Below, in pieces: positions 146 to 24,074 of a stretch of DNA of 24,087 bases. The stretch's first letter is position 1. The number at the start of each line of letters is the position of its first letter. The stretch is from IMG/VR virus record IMGVR_UViG_3300003691_000052, positions 1-24,087 of that record; one strand, written 5' to 3'. The position numbers and the translations under genes were made by a program. Origin of the DNA: a virus. Below the pieces are notes generated by a model. That model saw nothing but the letters and a program-made list of their open reading frames with translations, searched no databases and was not told where the DNA came from.

Positions 146-2322
146 GACCACAGCATCATGCCGTCAAAATCTAAGTCTATCTTGGCATTTTGTATCGATG
201 CGTCGTTGTTGAATATGTCTATTCTTAGTGTGCCAGCTGACTCAGAGAATGGGATTGCACCGAGGATGATAGAACCAGTAGAAATATAATAACCTCGGGT
301 CGCAGTGAACGTAGGCGTGTTGTCTTTCGTTATCGTACTGGTTCCAATAAAGTGATCAGATGCAAGGCTGTCCCTGACAACATTTGATATGACATCGACA
401 TCCGTTCTATCCGGTGCGGTAAACAAGTCGATACTTGTAGTAGTAGATGCAGCCAAGTCGCCCGTCAACTCTACTGCCCATTGCAAACCTAACAAAGCAA
501 AGTCGTCAAAAGGGCTATATGCCAGGTTGGTGCAGTCTACACCCAAGTTTTTACCAACAACACCACGCATGGCCGACATATCGTACATATACTTGCATTT
601 CTTAACTGTATTACCTGACACGTTTAATGCAGAGGAGCTATTAGTCCATATTCCAGCATCGCAAAGTGATATGTGATTACCTTGCACAATGGGGTTATCG
701 TAGGGGTTGGAAACCCTTATTCCGCTCGAACAACTCGTCACAACGTTCCCGCTCACCACTACATTCTCCGGCTCACCGTCCACATTGTTCACCAGCCATA
801 TGCCCACCACATCAAGGTTGGGTGTAGAGTATGTAGAGGGATCATCAGTGTCAGTCCTGCTATACGGCCCCTCAATAACATTGCCTGTTATTGAGTAGTT
901 TCGTGTCAATGGGTATACCCATATCCCGCCACCCGACGCACAGTGAATGGTATTGTCTGCCACTACAAGGTTCTCACCAAGATTCTCTAAATGGATTGCA
1001 GCATCCCCGTCACCTACATCCATATTAATGAACGAATTCCCAGTGATGGTAAGGTACGCCATGCTATCACCCCCAACATGCTGGCCAAGATCATCAAAGG
1101 TATTCCCAGTAACAGTTATGTGCCTCCAAGGCATATCCGCCCCTGAGTCAGAGAATTGGCTGTTGAAAGTTATCCCCCCTGTGCAGCCTTTGAAGCTGTT
1201 ACCCGATATATTCCAGCCCGCTGCGATGTTGCCCGACGAACCGAAAAAGTTGCCTGAGAATAGAATTATATTAAGACCGTGAAATTCGTTGCCCCTAAGT
1301 TCAACATTATCTGCGTTTGCGGCATCTGAGAGCTTGATTCCGTGTGGCCAATACTGAGTCGTTAGTGATCTTTCACCGGTGATTTCACAGTTAATTAGCT
1401 TGAATCCCGCCGAGTTCTGCCCCAAGCCTACTGCCACTGTTGATCCGTTATCTGCATTTATATCTATAGTCATATCAGCGATAGTAACGTTGTTGCTAGA
1501 CACCGAAACACCTGTGCCAAGTTTAGTGGCCGCGTAGTTTATCTTCAAGGTTGTAATCCCCTTACCATCCCCGTAGAGCCTCACAGGATTGCTTAAACTC
1601 AGGCCGTTTGTGTCTGTCGTTAGGTCTAAAAGATAGTCGCCAGCGGGCAGATAAACGCTTCCTGTATTTGCTGTAATAGCCAACTGTATAGCCGTCTTAT
1701 CATTTGTCACGCCGTCGCCAACAGCACCAAAGTCTTTGACACTCACAGATTCTTGTAACTTTGCCTCGACTGTTGTTTCTGTAGCAGCGGGGTCTGCTTT
1801 GTATGTTATTAGCGAAGAGTCTGATTCAGTTAATGTTAACGCGCCATTTATTAATGCTGTCCCTCCAGCGTTCCATATTAATGCCTTGCCACTTACAGGC
1901 TCAGGCAGCTCTGTGTCGGTTCCTTGGGCTGATGATGGAAATTTAATAGCCCTCGCCGCTTGAGTTAAAGCCTTCCGTGCTACTCTTAGATTCTTGTCAT
2001 AAGACGTTTCATGTAGACGGCTGTAGAAAGCCCCTTGATCCCCATAAGGCGTGAGCTGGGAAACATCCACATCGTCTTCAATAGCTAAAGAATCACCTGT
2101 AGGCGGAGCAGTAGTAAGCGTAATACTTCCACCCGTGTTATCACCAACACCAACCACAGTGTAATCCGACCCCAGCACTAGAACTGTCTCTACTCCATCA
2201 GAGTCAGCTTGGGTGACCAACAGGTCTATCTCGTCAGTTATCTTGAATTCATAATCAAATGCAGTCGCAATGCCGTTGCCTGAATGCCGGGTAATACTTG
2301 TCTCACCTGATGGGATCGTCAT
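142..2322 (-). CDS. Tailspike/tail fibre with T7 gp17-like N-terminal anchor and pectate-lyase-like beta-helix
   Basis: This 726-aa protein is the likely receptor-binding tailspike. Residues 1-120 resemble the T7 gp17 N-terminal attachment domain: a DYEFKITDE stretch, a GSDYTV-GVGDNTGGSITL phrase and a 'QLTPYGDQGAFY' segment followed by a helix. Residues about 197-225 carry DFGAVGDGVTND, the classic entry to a Pectate_lyase_3/right-handed beta-helix domain, followed by many repeated 'SGN-F' and 'VSGN-V' turns to about residue 580. The C-terminal ~130 residues are beta-rich and may form a trimerisation or receptor-binding cap. The start is the ATG at 2322, which forms TAATG with the stop of the upstream polyvalent gene and has GGAG about 7 nt upstream. 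A GTG 24 nt further upstream is open but lacks this arrangement. Depolymerase activity on host polysaccharide is plausible but not shown. Confidence 0.9.
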   Translation of the reverse strand: MTIPSGETSITRHSGNGIATAFDYEFKITDEIDLLVTQADSDGVETVLVLGSDYTVVGVGDNTGGSITLTTAPPTGDSLAIEDDVDVSQLTPYGDQGAFYSRLHETSYDKNLRVARKALTQAARAIKFPSSAQGTDTELPEPVSGKALIWNAGGTALINGALTLTESDSSLITYKADPAATETTVEAKLQESVSVKDFGAVGDGVTNDKTAIQLAITANTGSVYLPAGDYLLDLTTDTNGLSLSNPVRLYGDGKGITTLKINYAATKLGTGVSVSSNNVTIADMTIDINADNGSTVAVGLGQNSAGFKLINCEITGERSLTTQYWPHGIKLSDAANADNVELRGNEFHGLNIILFSGNFFGSSGNIAAGWNISGNSFKGCTGGITFNSQFSDSGADMPWRHITVTGNTFDDLGQHVGGDSMAYLTITGNSFINMDVGDGDAAIHLENLGENLVVADNTIHCASGGGIWVYPLTRNYSITGNVIEGPYSRTDTDDPSTYSTPNLDVVGIWLVNNVDGEPENVVVSGNVVTSCSSGIRVSNPYDNPIVQGNHISLCDAGIWTNSSSALNVSGNTVKKCKYMYDMSAMRGVVGKNLGVDCTNLAYSPFDDFALLGLQWAVELTGDLAASTTTSIDLFTAPDRTDVDVISNVVRDSLASDHFIGTSTITKDNTPTFTATRGYYISTGSIILGAIPFSESAGTLRIDIFNNDASIQNAKIDLDFDGMMLWS

Positions 2323-5300
2323 TAATTTCTCCGATTCTTCTGCCACTCTGGGCCGAACATTGTTTGTTTAATAGTGGTGGGTAAGTCTTCGTCATCTTCT
2401 ATGGATCGCTTTAAGCCAAAGATAATTCTATTCGCTTGAGCTGCTGGTAGTCCTGTTAATAATCCTACAAACCATAAGCCGCTTCTAAACAACGCTTCGT
2501 CTGCTTCTCCCTGGTTGGCCTGGAATCCAAAATCAATCGTCTTCCCGATCAGCGCCGTACCTTGTGGCCCAGCATAATCAAACCCCATAAAAGCGCCTGA
2601 AAACTGTGCTGATATAGGATTCATACCGGCTAAAAACGCCAACTGCTCTTTAGCAACTCTTGAGATAAAGTCTTCATCATCTTCATCGCCTGCAATAAAG
2701 TCGTTCAGTATTGCCGTCAGCACCGCTGGCATTGTCAACAGCACAAACGTATTGACCGCGAAATCAAATATATTCTGCTCACCAGCCTTTGTTTGCTGGT
2801 AGTTCTCAGCCTGTAGATTATACGTTGTTATCATGTAGGTGAGGAAGTTAGTGAACAGTTTTCGGTATGGCCCACCCTGCATAGCTTCTGCTGTGTCGAT
2901 TATATTGCCGCCACCTTGAGCGTCACGAACCACTTGTTCCGCTAATTCGATAGCCTTGCTTTTATCCAAACCTTTGTCGATAAAATGATCTCTCGCCGCC
3001 ATATATAAAGGCGCGTCAACCGTATAGAACTGCGCCTTCATAATGGGAATCATTCCGGCCTCCTTCGCATTATCAGCCCAGCCGTTATTTTTTATCTTAT
3101 TCTTAATACGGCCAATAGCTACCGACTGGACCACCTCTCTATTTTTCATGTAAAGAGATTCTTCACGAATCGCGCGGGAGGATTGCGCAGGGCTAGCCAT
3201 GTACTTCGCGTACCCATTAGCTAAATCCATGCCGCCAATACCCGCTAGCCGCGCTTTAACAATGGAGTTAGTAATACCAAAAGGCTGCAATACTGTGGTT
3301 CTCAACGACATGCCAAGCATCGCTAGCGTTGCATTGTTGCGAACCACTAATGCTATTTGATCTTGAATATCTTTAACAGGCTCAGAGCCATCTTTGATAT
3401 TGCGTATCATGCTAGTGAGCTGCTTATAAACGTGCTCACCATAACTATCAGTGATAGCCTGCTTCACACCGTTATTCGCCAAGACTCGACCAGCGTCATA
3501 CAAGGCTCGACCGTGAGTAGTCTTGTGGATAACATCAGCTACATGGCCAAAGATAACATTGGTTAGATCAGTTTGAAGAGGGCGAACCACTCGTGCCGCA
3601 CGGGCTTGAGTGCTGCCTAGTTTTTGTTTTGAACCAATCGAACGAGTCAGTGGCTCCTCAAGGCTGGTCAGGCTTTGCTGTTCAGCGATAGAGGATTTTG
3701 CTGTATCGTATTTAATAGGGAAGTAACCACCAGGCATTGGCCCGAACTTTGTTTCAAACGGCTCTGCCTCTACTGCATCAGGTGTAAACCCGTACAAGTC
3801 TTTATGTAAATCAAACGCGGGCTTTTTATAGGTCTCAAGGTAGGCCCATATATCTTTTGCGAAGAGCGTGTCCTTCTCCGTTAGATAAGTGTCCATCAGA
3901 TGTTTAGCTTCTGCCTCGGTAATCTTTAAGCCATCAACTACGCGCTGCTTATTACCTGAATTACCCCAGTTTAAAAGGATAGACAGAATATCGTTGTGCG
4001 TTGACTCTATCCCTGTTTGCTCATCGTAGATAATAGTATTAAACGAGCTTAGCTCTTTGCCTGAATACCGCTTAAATATCTCGTGCAGCTGCTTATTAGC
4101 ATCATTAATCTGCTCAGTCTCAAGTGCTGCCGCAGCCTGTAATGGTGCGCCGATTAGATTCCAGCCAACGCCGTCATTCTCATAACCGTCCAGCATCTTA
4201 ATTAAAGCTGTTGGTGTACGCGATATATCCATGAACTCGCGCACCGACTTGCCGCGTTCTTCTGCTTTTGACTTGGCAGACCCGATGCGCCTTTTCTTAG
4301 GCCCACCATCATTCTTTTTATACTTAATTGCGCTCTTATCAATGCTGCTAATAAAACTCGATACCCATTCTCCCAGCTCGCGCTTATCCTTCTGAGTTAG
4401 TAAGCGGTTTTTCAGAAGACTCATGTGGTCAATCATCTTAATCGCATCAACAACACCCTGTAATTCAACAGGTGTTAAGGTACGATAGTTGATAATCTGT
4501 GATTCTTTGAGCATGGCGTCTGAGATATTAGCCATACCGCCCTGCACATCCTCGCGGTCTTCCTGATCGGCAATCTCTTTAGAATCTTCAGAAAGAATCT
4601 CATGACTTCTAACCGGGCTGCCTTCTCCGCCTTCCGATAAAGTCTTGACTATCCAATCAGCCATTGACTGACGTGACTCAATTTTCTTGTTCGATACCGT
4701 CCTGAATTCAAACTGAGACATAATACTGGTTAGCTGGCCGTAATAATGATCTCCAGACTTCCGCAATCTCGCTAGCTTGTTGCCTTTAAACGACCGAACA
4801 TAAGACACGTTTTTATCGGCCTTCTCTTTTGCCTTTGTAGATTCCCGGTATAGGTAGAACTGGCGCAACGCTTTATGCTGTTCTAGCGCAGCCTTCTTGA
4901 AATTGCCCTCAGCAGCAGCCCGTAGCGCAGCCTCACGCGCTTTAATCTCGTTTCGCTTATGAGCGTCTGGGCGCAGCTTGCGAAGCTCAGTCTCGCTCAC
5001 AGTCTGCTCAGCCGCAGCCTTAAAATACTGTCGTGGTGTTTGGGCCTTTCCAGCTCGCTTGTTCAAGAATCGTAATTGACTAATAAATAGGTCGGCCCGC
5101 TTATCGTTATGGACAACATTCTCTGCTTCTTCTGCTATTGTCCCATCAGTGCGAAGATCGCCCTTCTCCTGCCGCAACTGTTCTTCAGCATGGGCTTTGA
5201 TGTATTTCTTTCGCGCCGTGGCCCCCAATGATCCGATTAGTTCACGAACCATTTTATCGCCAGAGCTAAAGTTAAACGCAGGGGCTAGCATTTCAGGATG

Positions 5301-8273
5301 AACACCGCCTTTCTGCGCTAGCCTCTCACCTCTGAGCCGCTTGGCAACAGATGATCCGTACATTTCTTTTATGTGCTGGTAGTCTAGCTTCTGGTCACCA
5401 CTGGATAAATGCTTCCTTAGTTTATATACATCCATGCCATCCATTTCTTCCGTGATGGTTTCGATGTTTTCCTCAACACCTTTCTTCCACTGCTTTGTGT
5501 TCTCGCGCTGCATCTCCTTCATAACCATCGCGGTCATAGCTCGACGATCTTCATCGTCAGCGTCATCGAGCATCTTCTGATAGATAGGAGCCTCAGTTGG
5601 CGATATGCCTAATTGCTCTACAGTCAGCGGCCCGTAGGACATTTGCTCTTGCGCGTTGTTAATTGCTTCCTCACTAGCAAACAATCGACTTAATACACCG
5701 CGAACCTCGTCGCTTAATTCAACGCCTTCCAGCTTATTACTTGCGAAGATATTGCTTAGCTTCTTGTAAGTTACCGCCAGCCATGATGAAAAACGATTAA
5801 ACACCGGCTGCAATTCAGGAACAGGGGCTTTACCCTCATACAGAAATTGTTCGTAACCATTGGCAAACGCTTCTTCTTTGTCTCGCTGGGTCTTCAAACC
5901 CTGAGATGCCCACCATCCCTCAATAATCTGTAGATCAGACGCTATTGATTCATCCATTGTGGATAAGTCGCGCATCACATCAAGGAAGTAGTGTGCCGAC
6001 TCGTGCATAAATGTGGATAAGTCTGCATTCTCGGTCAGTGTAATGCGCTTTCTTTTGGGATCGTAATAACCTCGCGGCCTTTGCTTCTCCATCGCCATCG
6101 AAGCAGGGGCTTGTATCTCATTGCCACCGACGATAACGATAGCGTGTTCGCTGGGAGCGTCAGCCGTTTTAGCTATAGGTGTGTTTCGTCGTTCCTCTGC
6201 TGTCAGGTCTTTGCGAGCCTCAGTGTTACGGGCTTCAATCTCTCCAGCCAATGCCTTGTATACATGGTACGGGCTTTTAAATTGACTCTCTCGATGGACT
6301 GTTTCAGCTCTTTTCCCTCTTCGCTTTATTTCCTCTAACGGCTCCAACTTCTTGCGCATCTTGCTTGATTCTCGGACAAGCGCGTCAACCATGCCTTTTG
6401 TAGATCGAGTATCATCTTTGAATTTCTGCAATGAATCGGGATCAATTTTGGACTCAAACAGCCCGGCGGCCTCCATTGCCATATCAGCAATAAATGCACT
6501 ACGCTTTCTAAGTTTGTGTCGTTTTGGTATTTCGTAGAACTTATAGGACAGGTTGTTTGCAGTTACATCACCTTTGAACTCAGGCTCGTATATCCACTGC
6601 ATATTATTACGGATATGCTTAAACACCCCCGATGGTGACGCGCTGTGAGCGTACTTCCTTAATCGCTGGGCCGAGTCATACATCATTGCATCACGGGCCA
6701 TCTCAGAGGCTTTTTTAGCCCCCTTGATCTTCCATCCGTTGATGGACTCCCATGTCTTTTGCTGATCTTTTGTGCCGAGCTGTAAAGTATTTAGCGCAGC
6801 TTTAACGGATGCAATGAATTCTTGATTTGAATTACCACCAGAGGCGAAGCCTTCTTCTAGCTGGATAGCGTGTTGCAGCTCGTGGAGAAGTATTGTCCGA
6901 ACCTCGCCAACAGGGTTATCTTCACCTATGGCGATACGGCCTTCATGTCGATAGAACGTGGCTCCCGTACCCTCTCGCGGAGTAACCTCTATATCCTGAA
7001 GATGCGGATAAGCAAGGAATAAAACAGGATGGCGCATAACATCAGCAACATTAACCCGCTCGGTTGTGCCTTCCATTCCAAGTAATTCTTTTGATATGCC
7101 GCCTAAAGCCGATCCAGTGACCTCTTCGTAAATATCACCCCATGTTCCCTCGGAGACTTTGAACGGTGCTTTGATCGTTGCGCCATCATCGGATATTTCA
7201 TAGCGCCACATAGCGTCAACGCCGCGATGCCAGCCTGTCTCTCGCCTGATTGTTTCCATGCTCATCTTAGCGCCGTGCATTTCCTTTGCTCGCCGCAGAT
7301 TGCCTAGATCACTGAGGCCTGATTTCTCGCCAGCGAACTGCTCAAGAATATCCATCTTCACATCATCTGACACAGCTTCGCCGTTGATGTTTTTGATAGT
7401 GACTATATTTTCTGCGCCGGGGAATATGACGTAGTTTCGAGTGCCATCACCTTCTTGGCGAGAGCCTTGATCTAGGTATTTAATACCGGGGATGCCTAGC
7501 TCTTTGAACTCAAAGCTCGCATCTTCAGCATTTTGATGCTTGCGAACCCTGCTGTAATAAAACTCCCCCGCCGTACTGAAATCTTCATTAAAGGAAGCCA
7601 ATGAAAACTGCTGTTCTAGCGCAGCTATTACGCCTTCCGATTGCTCGCTTAAAGGCTTATCCCAGTCAAGCATCAACTCCACAGCAGAGTCGTCAAGATC
7701 GTACTCGTAGAGAAAGCTCTCTTGATCCTTGTACAGTGCTTCTATTTCGTCGATTGCCTCGCTTGCCGCTTCTCTGAAGTCTTCGTCGTAATCATCTTCA
7801 TCACGATACCGCTCACGCAATTCAGTAGGTGTTTCGTGCTGCATCGCATTTTCATAGACTTCCATGTGAGTGTACATTTCGCTATTGCTATAGCGGTCGT
7901 AAGCCTCTAATAGCTTTTCTTCGTAATCAAAATCACGCGGGGAATAGGATTTCGCCGTGTTAATATTCTCAGCAACGTAGTGCCCATAACCATAAACCTG
8001 AGCGCCCTCACCCGTACCGATGAAGCCAGCGTCTAACACGCCACTATGGCGTGTTGGCGATCCTTGGAATACCGGCTGCTCTAAGCGATTCACAGTGCCG
8101 CCTTGAGCCTCGATATTCGAGGCTAGGCTATCTATCTGTTGGTCGATAAAATCAAGTACAGAGGCCACAGCGTCCGCCTCAGCCACGCCCGACTCAACCA
8201 TGCTTTCAATGGCAGACTTATCCCGGTCGCTTAACGCATCACCGAACTTTTCAAAGCATTTTGATAGAGCCAT
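2322..8273 (-). CDS. Giant polyvalent internal virion protein (ART-like, two metallopeptidase motifs, LPD38-like C-terminus)
   Basis: This 1983-aa protein sits in the position of T7 gp16, between the internal core genes and the tailspike, so it is probably packaged and ejected with the DNA. Residues 67-295 resemble the ART-PolyVal ADP-ribosyltransferase-like domain: GTGEGAQVYGYGHYVAE, later IKYLDQGSR and GTRNYVIF. Residues 464-468 are HELQH, with GEIEARN at 677-683 as a possible third zinc ligand region. Residues 757-761 are HESAH, with an EEAFANGYEQFLYEGK segment near 800. Residues 860-1500 look helical and charged. From about 1650 onward the pattern resembles large polyvalent-protein domain LPD38, with hydrophobic segments near 1842-1862 and 1932-1950. 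Its ATG overlaps the stop of the 35-aa peptide (TAATG) and has only a weak GGTG upstream. No T7-type transglycosylase domain was recognised. Domain names are from memory of family patterns. Confidence 0.88.
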   Translation of the reverse strand: MALSKCFEKFGDALSDRDKSAIESMVESGVAEADAVASVLDFIDQQIDSLASNIEAQGGTVNRLEQPVFQGSPTRHSGVLDAGFIGTGEGAQVYGYGHYVAENINTAKSYSPRDFDYEEKLLEAYDRYSNSEMYTHMEVYENAMQHETPTELRERYRDEDDYDEDFREAASEAIDEIEALYKDQESFLYEYDLDDSAVELMLDWDKPLSEQSEGVIAALEQQFSLASFNEDFSTAGEFYYSRVRKHQNAEDASFEFKELGIPGIKYLDQGSRQEGDGTRNYVIFPGAENIVTIKNINGEAVSDDVKMDILEQFAGEKSGLSDLGNLRRAKEMHGAKMSMETIRRETGWHRGVDAMWRYEISDDGATIKAPFKVSEGTWGDIYEEVTGSALGGISKELLGMEGTTERVNVADVMRHPVLFLAYPHLQDIEVTPREGTGATFYRHEGRIAIGEDNPVGEVRTILLHELQHAIQLEEGFASGGNSNQEFIASVKAALNTLQLGTKDQQKTWESINGWKIKGAKKASEMARDAMMYDSAQRLRKYAHSASPSGVFKHIRNNMQWIYEPEFKGDVTANNLSYKFYEIPKRHKLRKRSAFIADMAMEAAGLFESKIDPDSLQKFKDDTRSTKGMVDALVRESSKMRKKLEPLEEIKRRGKRAETVHRESQFKSPYHVYKALAGEIEARNTEARKDLTAEERRNTPIAKTADAPSEHAIVIVGGNEIQAPASMAMEKQRPRGYYDPKRKRITLTENADLSTFMHESAHYFLDVMRDLSTMDESIASDLQIIEGWWASQGLKTQRDKEEAFANGYEQFLYEGKAPVPELQPVFNRFSSWLAVTYKKLSNIFASNKLEGVELSDEVRGVLSRLFASEEAINNAQEQMSYGPLTVEQLGISPTEAPIYQKMLDDADDEDRRAMTAMVMKEMQRENTKQWKKGVEENIETITEEMDGMDVYKLRKHLSSGDQKLDYQHIKEMYGSSVAKRLRGERLAQKGGVHPEMLAPAFNFSSGDKMVRELIGSLGATARKKYIKAHAEEQLRQEKGDLRTDGTIAEEAENVVHNDKRADLFISQLRFLNKRAGKAQTPRQYFKAAAEQTVSETELRKLRPDAHKRNEIKAREAALRAAAEGNFKKAALEQHKALRQFYLYRESTKAKEKADKNVSYVRSFKGNKLARLRKSGDHYYGQLTSIMSQFEFRTVSNKKIESRQSMADWIVKTLSEGGEGSPVRSHEILSEDSKEIADQEDREDVQGGMANISDAMLKESQIINYRTLTPVELQGVVDAIKMIDHMSLLKNRLLTQKDKRELGEWVSSFISSIDKSAIKYKKNDGGPKKRRIGSAKSKAEERGKSVREFMDISRTPTALIKMLDGYENDGVGWNLIGAPLQAAAALETEQINDANKQLHEIFKRYSGKELSSFNTIIYDEQTGIESTHNDILSILLNWGNSGNKQRVVDGLKITEAEAKHLMDTYLTEKDTLFAKDIWAYLETYKKPAFDLHKDLYGFTPDAVEAEPFETKFGPMPGGYFPIKYDTAKSSIAEQQSLTSLEEPLTRSIGSKQKLGSTQARAARVVRPLQTDLTNVIFGHVADVIHKTTHGRALYDAGRVLANNGVKQAITDSYGEHVYKQLTSMIRNIKDGSEPVKDIQDQIALVVRNNATLAMLGMSLRTTVLQPFGITNSIVKARLAGIGGMDLANGYAKYMASPAQSSRAIREESLYMKNREVVQSVAIGRIKNKIKNNGWADNAKEAGMIPIMKAQFYTVDAPLYMAARDHFIDKGLDKSKAIELAEQVVRDAQGGGNIIDTAEAMQGGPYRKLFTNFLTYMITTYNLQAENYQQTKAGEQNIFDFAVNTFVLLTMPAVLTAILNDFIAGDEDDEDFISRVAKEQLAFLAGMNPISAQFSGAFMGFDYAGPQGTALIGKTIDFGFQANQGEADEALFRSGLWFVGLLTGLPAAQANRIIFGLKRSIEDDEDLPTTIKQTMFGPEWQKNRRN

Positions 8274-8380
8274 TACACACCGTTATGTTTTAAAGACGTA
8301 CTCTTGTGAGCTAAGACAGTTGTGCTGTTGTGGGCAAGGCTGGTGCTGTTATGTTTTAAGCTGGTATCGTTGTGCTTCAT
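8273..8380 (-). CDS. 35-residue tandem-repeat peptide, translationally coupled to the polyvalent gene
   Basis: This short ORF fills what would otherwise be a 122-nt gap. It starts at ATG 8380 with AGAAGG seven nucleotides upstream and ends in TAA that overlaps the next gene's ATG (TAATG at 8271-8275). After the first two residues the peptide consists of four 7-8-residue units of the form H-[NK]-x-T-[ST]-(V)-L-[KA], for example HNSTSLA, and ends HNGV. The units use different codons for the same residues (Ser as AGC, AGT and TCT; Thr as ACC, ACA and ACG; Leu as TTA and CTT), which suggests that the protein sequence, not the DNA, is being kept. It is polar, with no signal peptide or membrane segment. 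No known family was recognised. It may be a structural or regulatory peptide, or a leader ensuring reinitiation at the giant gene. Being coding is likely; its role is unknown. Confidence 0.7.
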   Translation of the reverse strand: MKHNDTSLKHNSTSLAHNSTTVLAHKSTSLKHNGV

Positions 8381-8387
8381 GGTAAAC

Positions 8388-8393
8388 CCTTCT
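8388..8393 (-). promoter_or_regulatory. Ribosome binding site of the 35-aa repeat peptide
   Basis: The minus strand reads AGAAGG, 7 nt before the ATG at 8380. It lies between the stop of the 114-aa gene (8396) and the peptide start. It is stronger than anything directly upstream of the 1983-aa gene, so it probably serves both through coupling. Confidence 0.6.
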
Positions 8394-8395
8394 GA

Positions 8396-8740
8396 TTAGT
8401 GCACGTGTTTAGCAGTAACGCCGATCATGGTTCCGTTTGTATCTTTAACGACTTCAAAGTGTACGTCTTGTGGCTTGGTTTTGTGCTCCATAATCAGCCT
8501 GGCTAGCTCCACAGTATCGACATTGCCGTCCTTTACCGCAGCAGCCACGACTTTCGCCTGCCTGTCCATCGCTTCAACCTGCATTTTAACAGTTTCACAC
8601 TGGAACTCAGCTATTTTTGCCAGCCCAGCGACGATAGACTCAACGCCATCGACCACAACAGGCACAACGTCTTTCTTTAACTTAGCGCCGCCAGCCTTCA
8701 TTTCTAAAAGCTCGGCCATGCTTATCGTTCGCTTATCCAC
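8396..8740 (-). CDS. Hypothetical 114-aa phage protein between internal virion protein genes
   Basis: The family is not recognised. The protein opens with a charged stretch and then has a predicted helical body (residues ~30-75) rich in Ala, Val, Gln and Glu, which could form a coiled coil. It ends with a short beta-like tail, VHFEVVKDTNGTMIGVTAKHVH split across two strands. The start is a GTG at 8740, supported by TAAGGA about 9 nt upstream (8750-8755). An in-frame ATG at 8719 lacks a good ribosome site. The gene overlaps the stop of the 826-aa gene by 8 nt and is followed by the 35-aa peptide after 15 nt. Its place among ejection-protein genes suggests a virion-associated or assembly role, which is inference only. 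Confidence 0.8.
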   Translation of the reverse strand: MDKRTISMAELLEMKAGGAKLKKDVVPVVVDGVESIVAGLAKIAEFQCETVKMQVEAMDRQAKVVAAAVKDGNVDTVELARLIMEHKTKPQDVHFEVVKDTNGTMIGVTAKHVH

Positions 8741-11213
8741 CGATACAATTCCTTATCTGTTCAACAGCGTCACGGCGCTGCATCATTGCTTCAAATTTGG
8801 CCTGCGCGCTTTCGGTCGCCTCTACTGTCTCGCCTGTTTCCTCGATTGTCACTTCTTCTACGACCTGTATGTCGCTGAAATCTTGCTCTGAGGCTACAGG
8901 TAGTGGCTTAATGGCATCGCCTATCGCTTGTGTCAGCGCATCAGGGTCAGCAACCTCTCCCAAAGCCGTCAGTATTTCCTCGTTCGTCATGGTATCAATA
9001 TCAATACCAGCTTGGTCGATGGCATCACCAAGAGTGTTAAGGTTGGACTGTAAGCTTTGCAGATCTGTATTCTCATTACCCATTGCGTAGACTGGATCGC
9101 CACGCAGTTCTGCTGCCACAGCATCTACCACGGCCTGCTCAGTCCTTTCGGTGATGTAGCCCGCTTCCATCAGGTACTCAGCAGCACCGTCGAGCGTATC
9201 GCCGCCTTCTGTAATCACTCGCTTGAATCGACCATCTTTACCTTCATCAACATCTAACGCAGATAGCTCACCACCAATATCAGTAATACCACCTTGCGAC
9301 ATAATGTAAGGGATGATCGACTCGCCAAATATATCGGCGTTTTGCGGCACGTCACCATCACGCATCATATTGATTAACGTGTCAGCCTCAGTGACCGCCT
9401 TCATGCGCTTTTGTAATCGCGGGTCAACCTCACGACCAATAGAGGGGAATTGCCGCTTGAGTAAATCCATAGGGGTTAAGCCTTGGGCTTTAATGCCCGG
9501 CCTATCTGCCCATGTTTTAAAATGCGCTTCCCATACAATTGCATTGGTCTCAGCCGTAGACCGATCTGTACTTATCGCTAATTGCTGGCCAAGAATCTCG
9601 TTATATACTTCTGTATTCTCGACTCTATCCTCATGGCTTTGCTTGGTTAGCTCGGCAATGTTGGCTTGAATATCTGCGCTCTCTAGCTCTCCCTGAGTTA
9701 GCGCATCAGAATTCATCGTTATATGGGCTGCTAATCCAGCCTGCAAGTCTGTACCCACAATGTCGGTAGCGTAGACCTCGATAGGTATTTCTATCCTGCG
9801 GCCTTCTTCAATGGCAGACTCTATCTGATCTTTTATATCCTGAGCGGCTTTAAAGTCATCGCCTACCAGGATGTTCTCGCCTTGATACATACCTTGGAAG
9901 TAAACGTTTGCGCCTTCCGCATCAAGATAGATGGTATCAGTGACACCTTCCTCGCTCATCTTCGCAATCAGTTCGCGGAATTTCTCAGGATTACTTTCGC
10001 GCAAGGCTGATTGTTCAAGGTATTGGTTTAATTCTTCTAGCTTTTTCTGTCCGGCTTCTGATCGGTTAATCAATGCGCCAGCACCAGAGGCGATACCTAT
10101 TTGCGTACCACCGGCAACCAGTGTTGATACAAAAGTGACTGCCTGCCTTCTCGATTGAACCTCTGCCTTCTCGCGCAAGCCAACTGCGTTTTCTAGCTCC
10201 TCATCAAGCCCGTGCGCGTAAGCATTTAGACTTTGAGTGAACGTGGCTATCTGCTCTCCTGTTAGCTCGCCAATAGCGAACTTTGAAATAGCAGACTTCC
10301 ACCCAGGCCCCAATGCTTTAACCATTTGACTAGCGGGTATTAGCTCAGTAAGAACCTCGATGCTAGCATTAGTGCCTGCGTAAAGAGATGCTTGGCCATG
10401 CTCTAGCCCTTCTGATCGAGCCTCGCCATAAGCGCCAAATCCTTCAAACGAACCCATACCAGCAAGCATGGGAACTGGCGACCTTGATAACAATGTGGCC
10501 GCAAATAACGGAGCTTGCACCGAAAGAGAATGAATGCCACCCCTAATACCTTCTTGCAGGATGCTTAAATCTTCCGGGGTCAACTCTGCTATCTTTTCTT
10601 TGCCAGCTTTGATCTCACTGAACAGCGATGCTTGCGCGGCTTCTTTCGCATCAGCCAAATCGCCATCATTATCAATGCCAAACTCAGCAGCCAAACTACG
10701 ACTTAACATTTGCTGCTCAAGCATTGATATGCCAGGAGGGAATACACTTGCCGGTATCAGATTATCAACACGATCAGACGTGGAGTCAGTAGCGCCAACT
10801 CTCACGCCTCGACCAGCTTGCTTGAATGACTCACTAATCGATCCGCCAAGACCTTTGAAAATACCCTCAATGTAGCTCAGGTTCTCAATATCCTTATGTG
10901 CCAACCGTGCAAAGTCAACATCCTGAAAGGCTGCCCTGGTTGTAGGCGATGCGCTTTTTATCCGATCAGCCAAATCTACCGCTTCAATGTCGTCAGTCTT
11001 GCGGCGAACAGTATCTAGCTGATAGCCGTGCTTCTTCGACAGGTCGTTAAACCGGGCTTCCTGCTCTGGGTTTGAGTTTATCGTTTGGCGAGCAACACTA
11101 TCATCATTAAATAACGCCTTGTCTGCTTTCTCAGGACTAAACGTCAGCGCGTCAATTTGTTGATGCCCAACAGCCCCCAGCTCCTCATCAGCTTTCAGTG
11201 GGTTAAAAGCCAT
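8733..11213 (-). CDS. 826-aa internal virion (ejection) protein candidate with hydrophobic Gly/Ala-rich core
   Basis: This long protein lies in the internal core protein cluster (T7 gp15/gp16 region). Residues 222-300 form a Gly/Ala-rich, partly hydrophobic stretch containing GAYGEARSEGLEHGQASLYAG and an E-LTELIP phrase, and residues 358-382 form a second hydrophobic Gly-rich stretch. Both could enter a membrane or line a channel during DNA ejection. The N-terminal 200 residues are polar. The middle carries IEIPIEVYATDI, and residues ~680-730 contain an AGYITERTEQAVVDAV segment; both phrases recur in large phage ejection proteins as I remember them. The acidic C-terminus is probably coiled. 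The ATG overlaps the upstream stop as TAATG and has no strong ribosome site of its own, so it is probably coupled. No enzymatic motif was found. Confidence 0.82.
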   Translation of the reverse strand: MAFNPLKADEELGAVGHQQIDALTFSPEKADKALFNDDSVARQTINSNPEQEARFNDLSKKHGYQLDTVRRKTDDIEAVDLADRIKSASPTTRAAFQDVDFARLAHKDIENLSYIEGIFKGLGGSISESFKQAGRGVRVGATDSTSDRVDNLIPASVFPPGISMLEQQMLSRSLAAEFGIDNDGDLADAKEAAQASLFSEIKAGKEKIAELTPEDLSILQEGIRGGIHSLSVQAPLFAATLLSRSPVPMLAGMGSFEGFGAYGEARSEGLEHGQASLYAGTNASIEVLTELIPASQMVKALGPGWKSAISKFAIGELTGEQIATFTQSLNAYAHGLDEELENAVGLREKAEVQSRRQAVTFVSTLVAGGTQIGIASGAGALINRSEAGQKKLEELNQYLEQSALRESNPEKFRELIAKMSEEGVTDTIYLDAEGANVYFQGMYQGENILVGDDFKAAQDIKDQIESAIEEGRRIEIPIEVYATDIVGTDLQAGLAAHITMNSDALTQGELESADIQANIAELTKQSHEDRVENTEVYNEILGQQLAISTDRSTAETNAIVWEAHFKTWADRPGIKAQGLTPMDLLKRQFPSIGREVDPRLQKRMKAVTEADTLINMMRDGDVPQNADIFGESIIPYIMSQGGITDIGGELSALDVDEGKDGRFKRVITEGGDTLDGAAEYLMEAGYITERTEQAVVDAVAAELRGDPVYAMGNENTDLQSLQSNLNTLGDAIDQAGIDIDTMTNEEILTALGEVADPDALTQAIGDAIKPLPVASEQDFSDIQVVEEVTIEETGETVEATESAQAKFEAMMQRRDAVEQIRNCIGG

Positions 11214-23729: not shown

Positions 23730-24074
23730 TTATTTAATCATTTCCATGTAGGCCGCCGCCAATATCAACAGCAACTCCTCCTCTTCTCTTGCTTGCCTCT
23801 CTAGCCAGTTCGAAGGGGTCGCTCCTCTGAACCCACCTCCTACTCTTGGTGCTAAGGGTCTTGCTATAACACCGACTGGCGCACCTGTTATCCATACCCC
23901 CATCGACTGCAATAGTGTGATGCCGGGTGTGGCTACAAGTACAGAAGGGTTTCCGCCTGTTATCCATACGCCTGTAGCCTGCAATAGCGTGATGCCGGGT
24001 GTCGTTGTTGCGACAACCTTGCTTAGTGGTATTACTCCTTGTAGTGCTAGGAGGTCACGCAGACCGCCTGCCAT
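23730..24074 (-). CDS. Hypothetical small protein with tandem 24-residue repeat (may extend past the window)
   Basis: The family is not recognised. Residues ~23-70 contain two copies of a Gly/Thr/Ile-rich unit, TPGITLLQ-x-x-GVWITG, 24 residues apart, and the C-terminus is an Arg/Glu then Leu/Ala helix ending AAAYMEMIK. The repeat copies differ mainly by synonymous third-base changes in this frame (Thr ACG/ACA, Gly GGC/GGG), which supports this frame over the overlapping one on the same strand. The first ATG is at 24074, with no clear ribosome site and no in-frame stop between it and the window edge, so the true start could lie outside. It directly precedes terminase; a virion or packaging role is only suggested by location. 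Confidence 0.6.
   Translation of the reverse strand: MAGGLRDLLALQGVIPLSKVVATTTPGITLLQATGVWITGGNPSVLVATPGITLLQSMGVWITGAPVGVIARPLAPRVGGGFRGATPSNWLERQAREEEELLLILAAAYMEMIK
23884..24002 (-). repeat. Two 47-bp imperfect direct repeats, period 72 bp, inside the pre-terminase gene
   Basis: Copies at 23884-23930 and 23956-24002 differ at only a few positions. The 72-bp period is a whole number of codons (24), so the repeat is in frame and duplicates the TPGITLLQ...GVWITG unit. It looks like a recent in-gene duplication. Confidence 0.9.

Follow-up and report, generated by a model that had tools for sequence, protein, structure and literature searches.

The closest described counterparts of this locus are giant polyvalent proteins encoded beside a structural lysozyme gene, namely bbp10 of Bordetella phage BPP-1, AF_016 of Pseudomonas phage AF and gp32 of Cobetia phage Carin1. 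Each is homologous to one or both of two large ORFs, of 826 and 1983 aa, in the window, by which we mean the whole 24,087-nucleotide stretch of viral DNA analyzed here (IMG/VR record IMGVR_UViG_3300003691_000052), and the gene order is as in the window. Each of the three is one uninterrupted ORF of 2052-2854 aa, with no small ORF at the place that corresponds to the junction studied here. In the named relatives, among them BPP-1, AF and Carin1 as well as Vibrio phage PS25B.1 and Caulobacter phage BL94, a single ORF of 2039-2854 aa follows the structural lysozyme gene immediately.

The window differs in that the protein is encoded in two pieces. The profile phrog_9880 matches the 826-aa ORF at profile positions 254-744 and the 1983-aa ORF at 789-2200, and PHROG and Pfam matches (LPD22 in the first ORF, LPD23 and DUF6782 in the second) place both in one giant family. 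These matches identify the 826-aa and 1983-aa ORFs as the N- and C-terminal halves of one split polyvalent protein (Table 1). The initial annotation had spoken of "gp16-like/polyvalent" genes in related phages; the label "gp16-like" is not borne out by the HMM matches, which are to LPD22/LPD23 and to PHROGs of unknown function. Both halves lie in one ORF at 52 of the 53 loci where both were matched, a count of records that includes near-duplicate contigs rather than one of independent lineages. The exception is L009 (IMG/VR contig IMGVR_UViG_3300025722_000002, extended as L182), which has the same split as the window and a giant region 38% identical to it.

Table 1. Features at the split of the giant gene (window coordinates).
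Feature	Position	Strand	Description
826-aa ORF	8733..11213	minus	identified as N-terminal half of split polyvalent protein; LPD22
826-aa ORF, C-terminal tail (about aa 765-826)	8733..8921	minus	similar in L009, absent from unsplit L183
114-aa ORF	8396..8740	minus	predicted long helix and C-terminal beta hairpin; C-terminus resembles L009 p117
Shine-Dalgarno-like AGAAGG	8388..8393	minus	7 nt 5' of peptide ATG at 8380
35-codon peptide ORF	8273..8380 (8380→8273)	minus	reads MKHNDTSLKHNSTSLAHNSTTVLAHKSTSLKHNGV
Unit 1, KHNDTSL	8377-8357	minus	exact heptad
Unit 2, KHNSTSL	8356-8336	minus	exact heptad
Unit 3, AHNSTTVL	8335-8312	minus	8 codons, one residue extra
Unit 4, AHKSTSL	8311-8291	minus	exact heptad
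Unit 5, KHNGV	8290-8276	minus	partial, C-terminal end of peptide
TAATG	8271..8275	minus	peptide stop TAA (8275-8273) overlaps ATG of 1983-aa ORF by 1 base
1983-aa ORF, N-terminal tail (about aa 1-67)	8073..8273	minus	similar in L009, absent from unsplit L183
1983-aa ORF	2322..8273	minus	identified as C-terminal half: LPD23, DUF6782-like metallopeptidase region, second HE..H region

We compared the cut with L009 and with L183, the best-matching relative (major capsid protein 76% identical), in which the giant gene is unsplit, one ORF with a length of at least 4120 codons. Similarity of L183 to the 826-aa ORF ends near residue 764, and that to the 1983-aa ORF becomes clear at about residue 80 (BLAST carries the match back to residue 8, but weakly); L183 has neither the tails nor small genes at the corresponding place. 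The tails recur in L009 and in no other fetched locus: the first half ends with RRGVVEQLADCMGA in L009 and RRDAVEQIRNCIGG in the window, and the second half starts with VASLADCIRKAGKALDGKDRDALEAYL and MALSKCFEKFGDALSDRDKSAIESMV, respectively. The gene order in L009 is lysozyme-like, 915-aa, 117-aa, 760-aa, 704-aa, 79-aa and 2569-aa ORF. Its 117-aa protein (p117) ends in DGTGDIVGVKPKARH and the 114-aa protein of the window (p114) in DTNGTMIGVTAKHVH, both carrying GxxxGVxxKxxH at the stop; the predicted structure of p114 combines a long helix and a beta hairpin (mean pLDDT 73). Since the tails and a gene of the 114-aa type are common to the window and L009 and are missing from L183, they form a shared split block, and the rest is cargo. 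Two small genes, the 114-aa ORF and a 35-codon peptide ORF, occupy the cut in the window, whereas L009 has no heptad peptide and carries in its place two large genes and the 79-aa gene. By this comparison, the cargo that the window carries in the split slot is the heptad peptide. The 760- and 704-aa genes of L009 lie at L009:1472-5861, and the second has only a weak match to a head-decoration PHROG. In L183, the giant ORF (L183:8576-20936) runs past the fetched stretch and contains several separate matches to about residues 174-311 of the 1983-aa ORF.

An intron or a frameshift of the giant gene is not supported, the halves ending in tails common with L009 and the block holding genes of its own. 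The initial annotation had treated the gap before the 1983-aa ORF as a general feature. It is the split of the giant gene alone that creates this gap, and nearly all relatives are gapless at this point: the median gap is -1 nt, no small ORF there has a repeat score above 40, and no relative of the peptide was found. The arrangement suggests a broader, testable feature: in phages, a giant polyvalent protein can be cut in two at a single site, where dedicated tails flank a slot with exchangeable cargo.

The peptide ORF itself is as the initial annotation had described it at both ends, with AGAAGG 7 nt before the ATG and one base common to the TAA stop and the ATG of the 1983-aa ORF. The AGAAGG is a modest to weak Shine-Dalgarno (SD) sequence with an AAGG core. 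Four or five units of seven residues, nearly identical to one another, make up the peptide; of the four heptads counted previously, three are exact, while the third unit has eight residues, and a fifth, partial unit had been missed. The ORF is in frame with the preceding 114-aa ORF, from which TAA and five codons separate it (chance expectation 1/3). With the peptide ORF counted, all gaps in the window are at most 57 nt, and without it the 122 nt between the 114-aa and 1983-aa ORFs would be the largest. Overlaps of 1 nt are common in this operon, occurring at 6 of 19 junctions if the fiber gene starts at ATG 2322. This spacing fits the operon and adds weight to coding. The open frame, the start codon, the plausible SD and the tight spacing of a lineage-specific small late gene were all found here. 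Two other genes of the window deserve mention. The tail-fiber-like gene is listed with GTG 2346 as its start, but ATG 2322 is the more likely one; its SD is better, and it overlaps the 1983-aa ORF by 1 nt. A separate 114-aa ORF at the window end (23730-24074) contains two copies of a segment of about 16-20 residues (TPGITLLQxxGVWITG).

The repeat in the peptide is far above chance. Its ungapped self-similarity score is 71 at period 7, whereas 20,000 shuffled peptides average 21 and never exceed 51. The window has 101 ORFs of 25-60 aa that start with ATG, of which the next best scores 36, and only three of the 10,176 such ORFs of related loci reach 71, all three being low-complexity. In the remaining five frames of this stretch of DNA, scores range from 16 to 40.

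The units differ by 39% at the DNA level, mainly at third codon positions, and are 70% identical as peptide. Pairwise differences at codon positions 1, 2 and 3 number 15, 13 and 35 (54 comparisons each), values that need a few-fold discount because the frame was picked by a reader. A comparison of dN/dS between units had been proposed in the initial annotation; run here as pN/pS, it gives about 0.27, in keeping with the third-position excess. When neutral divergence was simulated from the consensus unit until the DNA divergence equaled that observed, amino acid identity between units averaged 16 of 54 and reached at most 30, compared with 38 of 54 in the peptide (0 of 3,000 simulations reach 38), and a third-position bias as strong as the observed one appeared in 0.4% of simulations, again subject to the few-fold discount. 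The earlier suggestion, from synonymous codon differences, that the peptide is under selection thus stands for the units, and the case is drawn entirely from repeats inside one sequence because no homologue was found. Together, the divergence of the unit DNA with the peptide kept and a repeat beyond chance make it most likely that the 35-codon ORF is a translated gene whose peptide sequence is under selection. The locus is a compact case of within-gene repeats giving coding evidence for an orphan gene without homologues.

We are inclined, if by no great measure, to see the ORF as a short gene of the late (virion) operon that is cargo of the slot opened by the giant-gene split and makes a self-associating accessory peptide. 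A single-ORF polyvalent protein of the ejection type was split into the 826-aa and 1983-aa halves, opening the slot in which the peptide gene is carried. Ribosomes would initiate at the peptide's own weak SD, immediately after the 114-aa gene, synthesize the 35-residue peptide of seven-residue units and stop at TAATG, where re-initiation directly on the 1983-aa half is possible, so that peptide and half-protein may be made together. The peptide would most likely be a helical heptad module that self-associates, with Leu and Asn at core positions, and could act as a small accessory component, either of the split protein or of the virion.

The TAATG overlap is equally what one would expect of a pure coupling leader, translated to deliver ribosomes to the 1983-aa start with a peptide sequence that is irrelevant. 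The weak 4-nt SD (GGTG) 5' of the 1983-aa ATG fits this too, as does the unrelated small gene (p79) that directly precedes the giant half in L009. However, the units keep the peptide while their synonymous sites diverge, a point made by the repeats alone, so the product and not just the act of translation appears to matter, and most other junctions of the operon are also tight, so coupling needs no dedicated gene. We therefore consider a pure leader unlikely: the coupling role put forward in the initial annotation is compatible with the overlap, but by itself it leaves selection on the peptide unexplained. Relatives keep the giant gene with no peptide between the halves, so most do without it, which also weakens the idea that the peptide is required for expression of the downstream gene.

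It is quite improbable, in our estimate, that the ORF is a diverged 21-bp DNA tandem repeat (a minisatellite) that is open in one frame by chance and encodes a peptide without a role. The ORF contains two exact copies of a 12-nt sequence, TTAAAACATAAC, that is found nowhere else in the window even with one mismatch, and a search with a DNA pattern derived from the peptide turns up 21-bp arrays in unrelated bacteria, some of them interrupted by in-frame stops. In species genomes, the two-heptad form of this pattern gave 11 matches, all of them repeat arrays of this look-alike kind and several with stops; in viral contigs it gave none, and a looser pattern gave two low-complexity arrays. Seven such 21-bp arrays served as controls, and six lack the third-position bias that the window has. 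The exception is an intergenic Nostoc array with no clear start (L178:4984-5214; open for 100 codons, with HNITPLV-type heptads), whose strong bias is similar to the window's, and because of it we regard third-position bias as supportive rather than conclusive. Neutral divergence, moreover, would not keep the peptide so similar, the ORF fits exactly between an SD-bearing start and the ATG of the next gene, and TRF calls no array there. A remnant of L009-like, fiber-like cargo is very unlikely, as is an extension of the 114-aa ORF, whether a former one or one reached by readthrough: the peptide ORF occupies the same slot as p760, p704 and p79 of L009 and lies in frame just behind p114, but it has no similarity to the L009 cargo and has its own SD and ATG, and the ends of p114 and p117 fall on equivalent residues, which makes the p114 stop look original.

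We read the peptide as an orphan, a lineage-specific small late protein without known relatives, in agreement with the initial annotation, which knew of no described family. A tblastn search of phage records and searches of PDB, Pfam, PHROGs and NCBIfam gave no match to the peptide at E up to 10, although this absence is no proof, as the records closest to the window may be missing from the searched collections. Among plasmids, tblastn gave only E=3 matches in Nitratiruptor (unannotated, 47% identity), which we take as chance. A heptad regular expression run over an earlier set of the fetched loci found the window itself only, and a literature search found nothing on such peptides. No terminator was found at the peptide ORF, and no promoter on its coding strand. 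An RNA element was rejected as an identity for the ORF, with a fold weaker than that of shuffles (z +1.8) and no Rfam match.

Run on the single sequence without an alignment, AlphaFold predicts one helix over residues 4-33, which would suit a heptad helix, at low confidence (mean pLDDT 67). The period is seven, with one skip residue. Units rich in Ser, Thr, Asn and His, with one Leu per heptad, would make for a weak coiled coil. We speculate, as a long shot, that a tiny, self-associating His/Asn heptad peptide acts together with the coiled 114-aa protein and the tails newly present on both half-proteins to replace the covalent link of the split ejection protein. Trimeric coiled coils can carry Asn in the core, as in the N@d layers of trimeric autotransporter stalks, and phage fibers contain His-rich heptads. 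The peptide resembles the Asn-core trimeric coiled coils in its seven-residue period, and with Leu placed at a, Asn falls at d where present. Unlike those stalks and the His-rich phage fibers, it stands free, is 35 residues long and has only a single Leu in each heptad and no sequence-family match.
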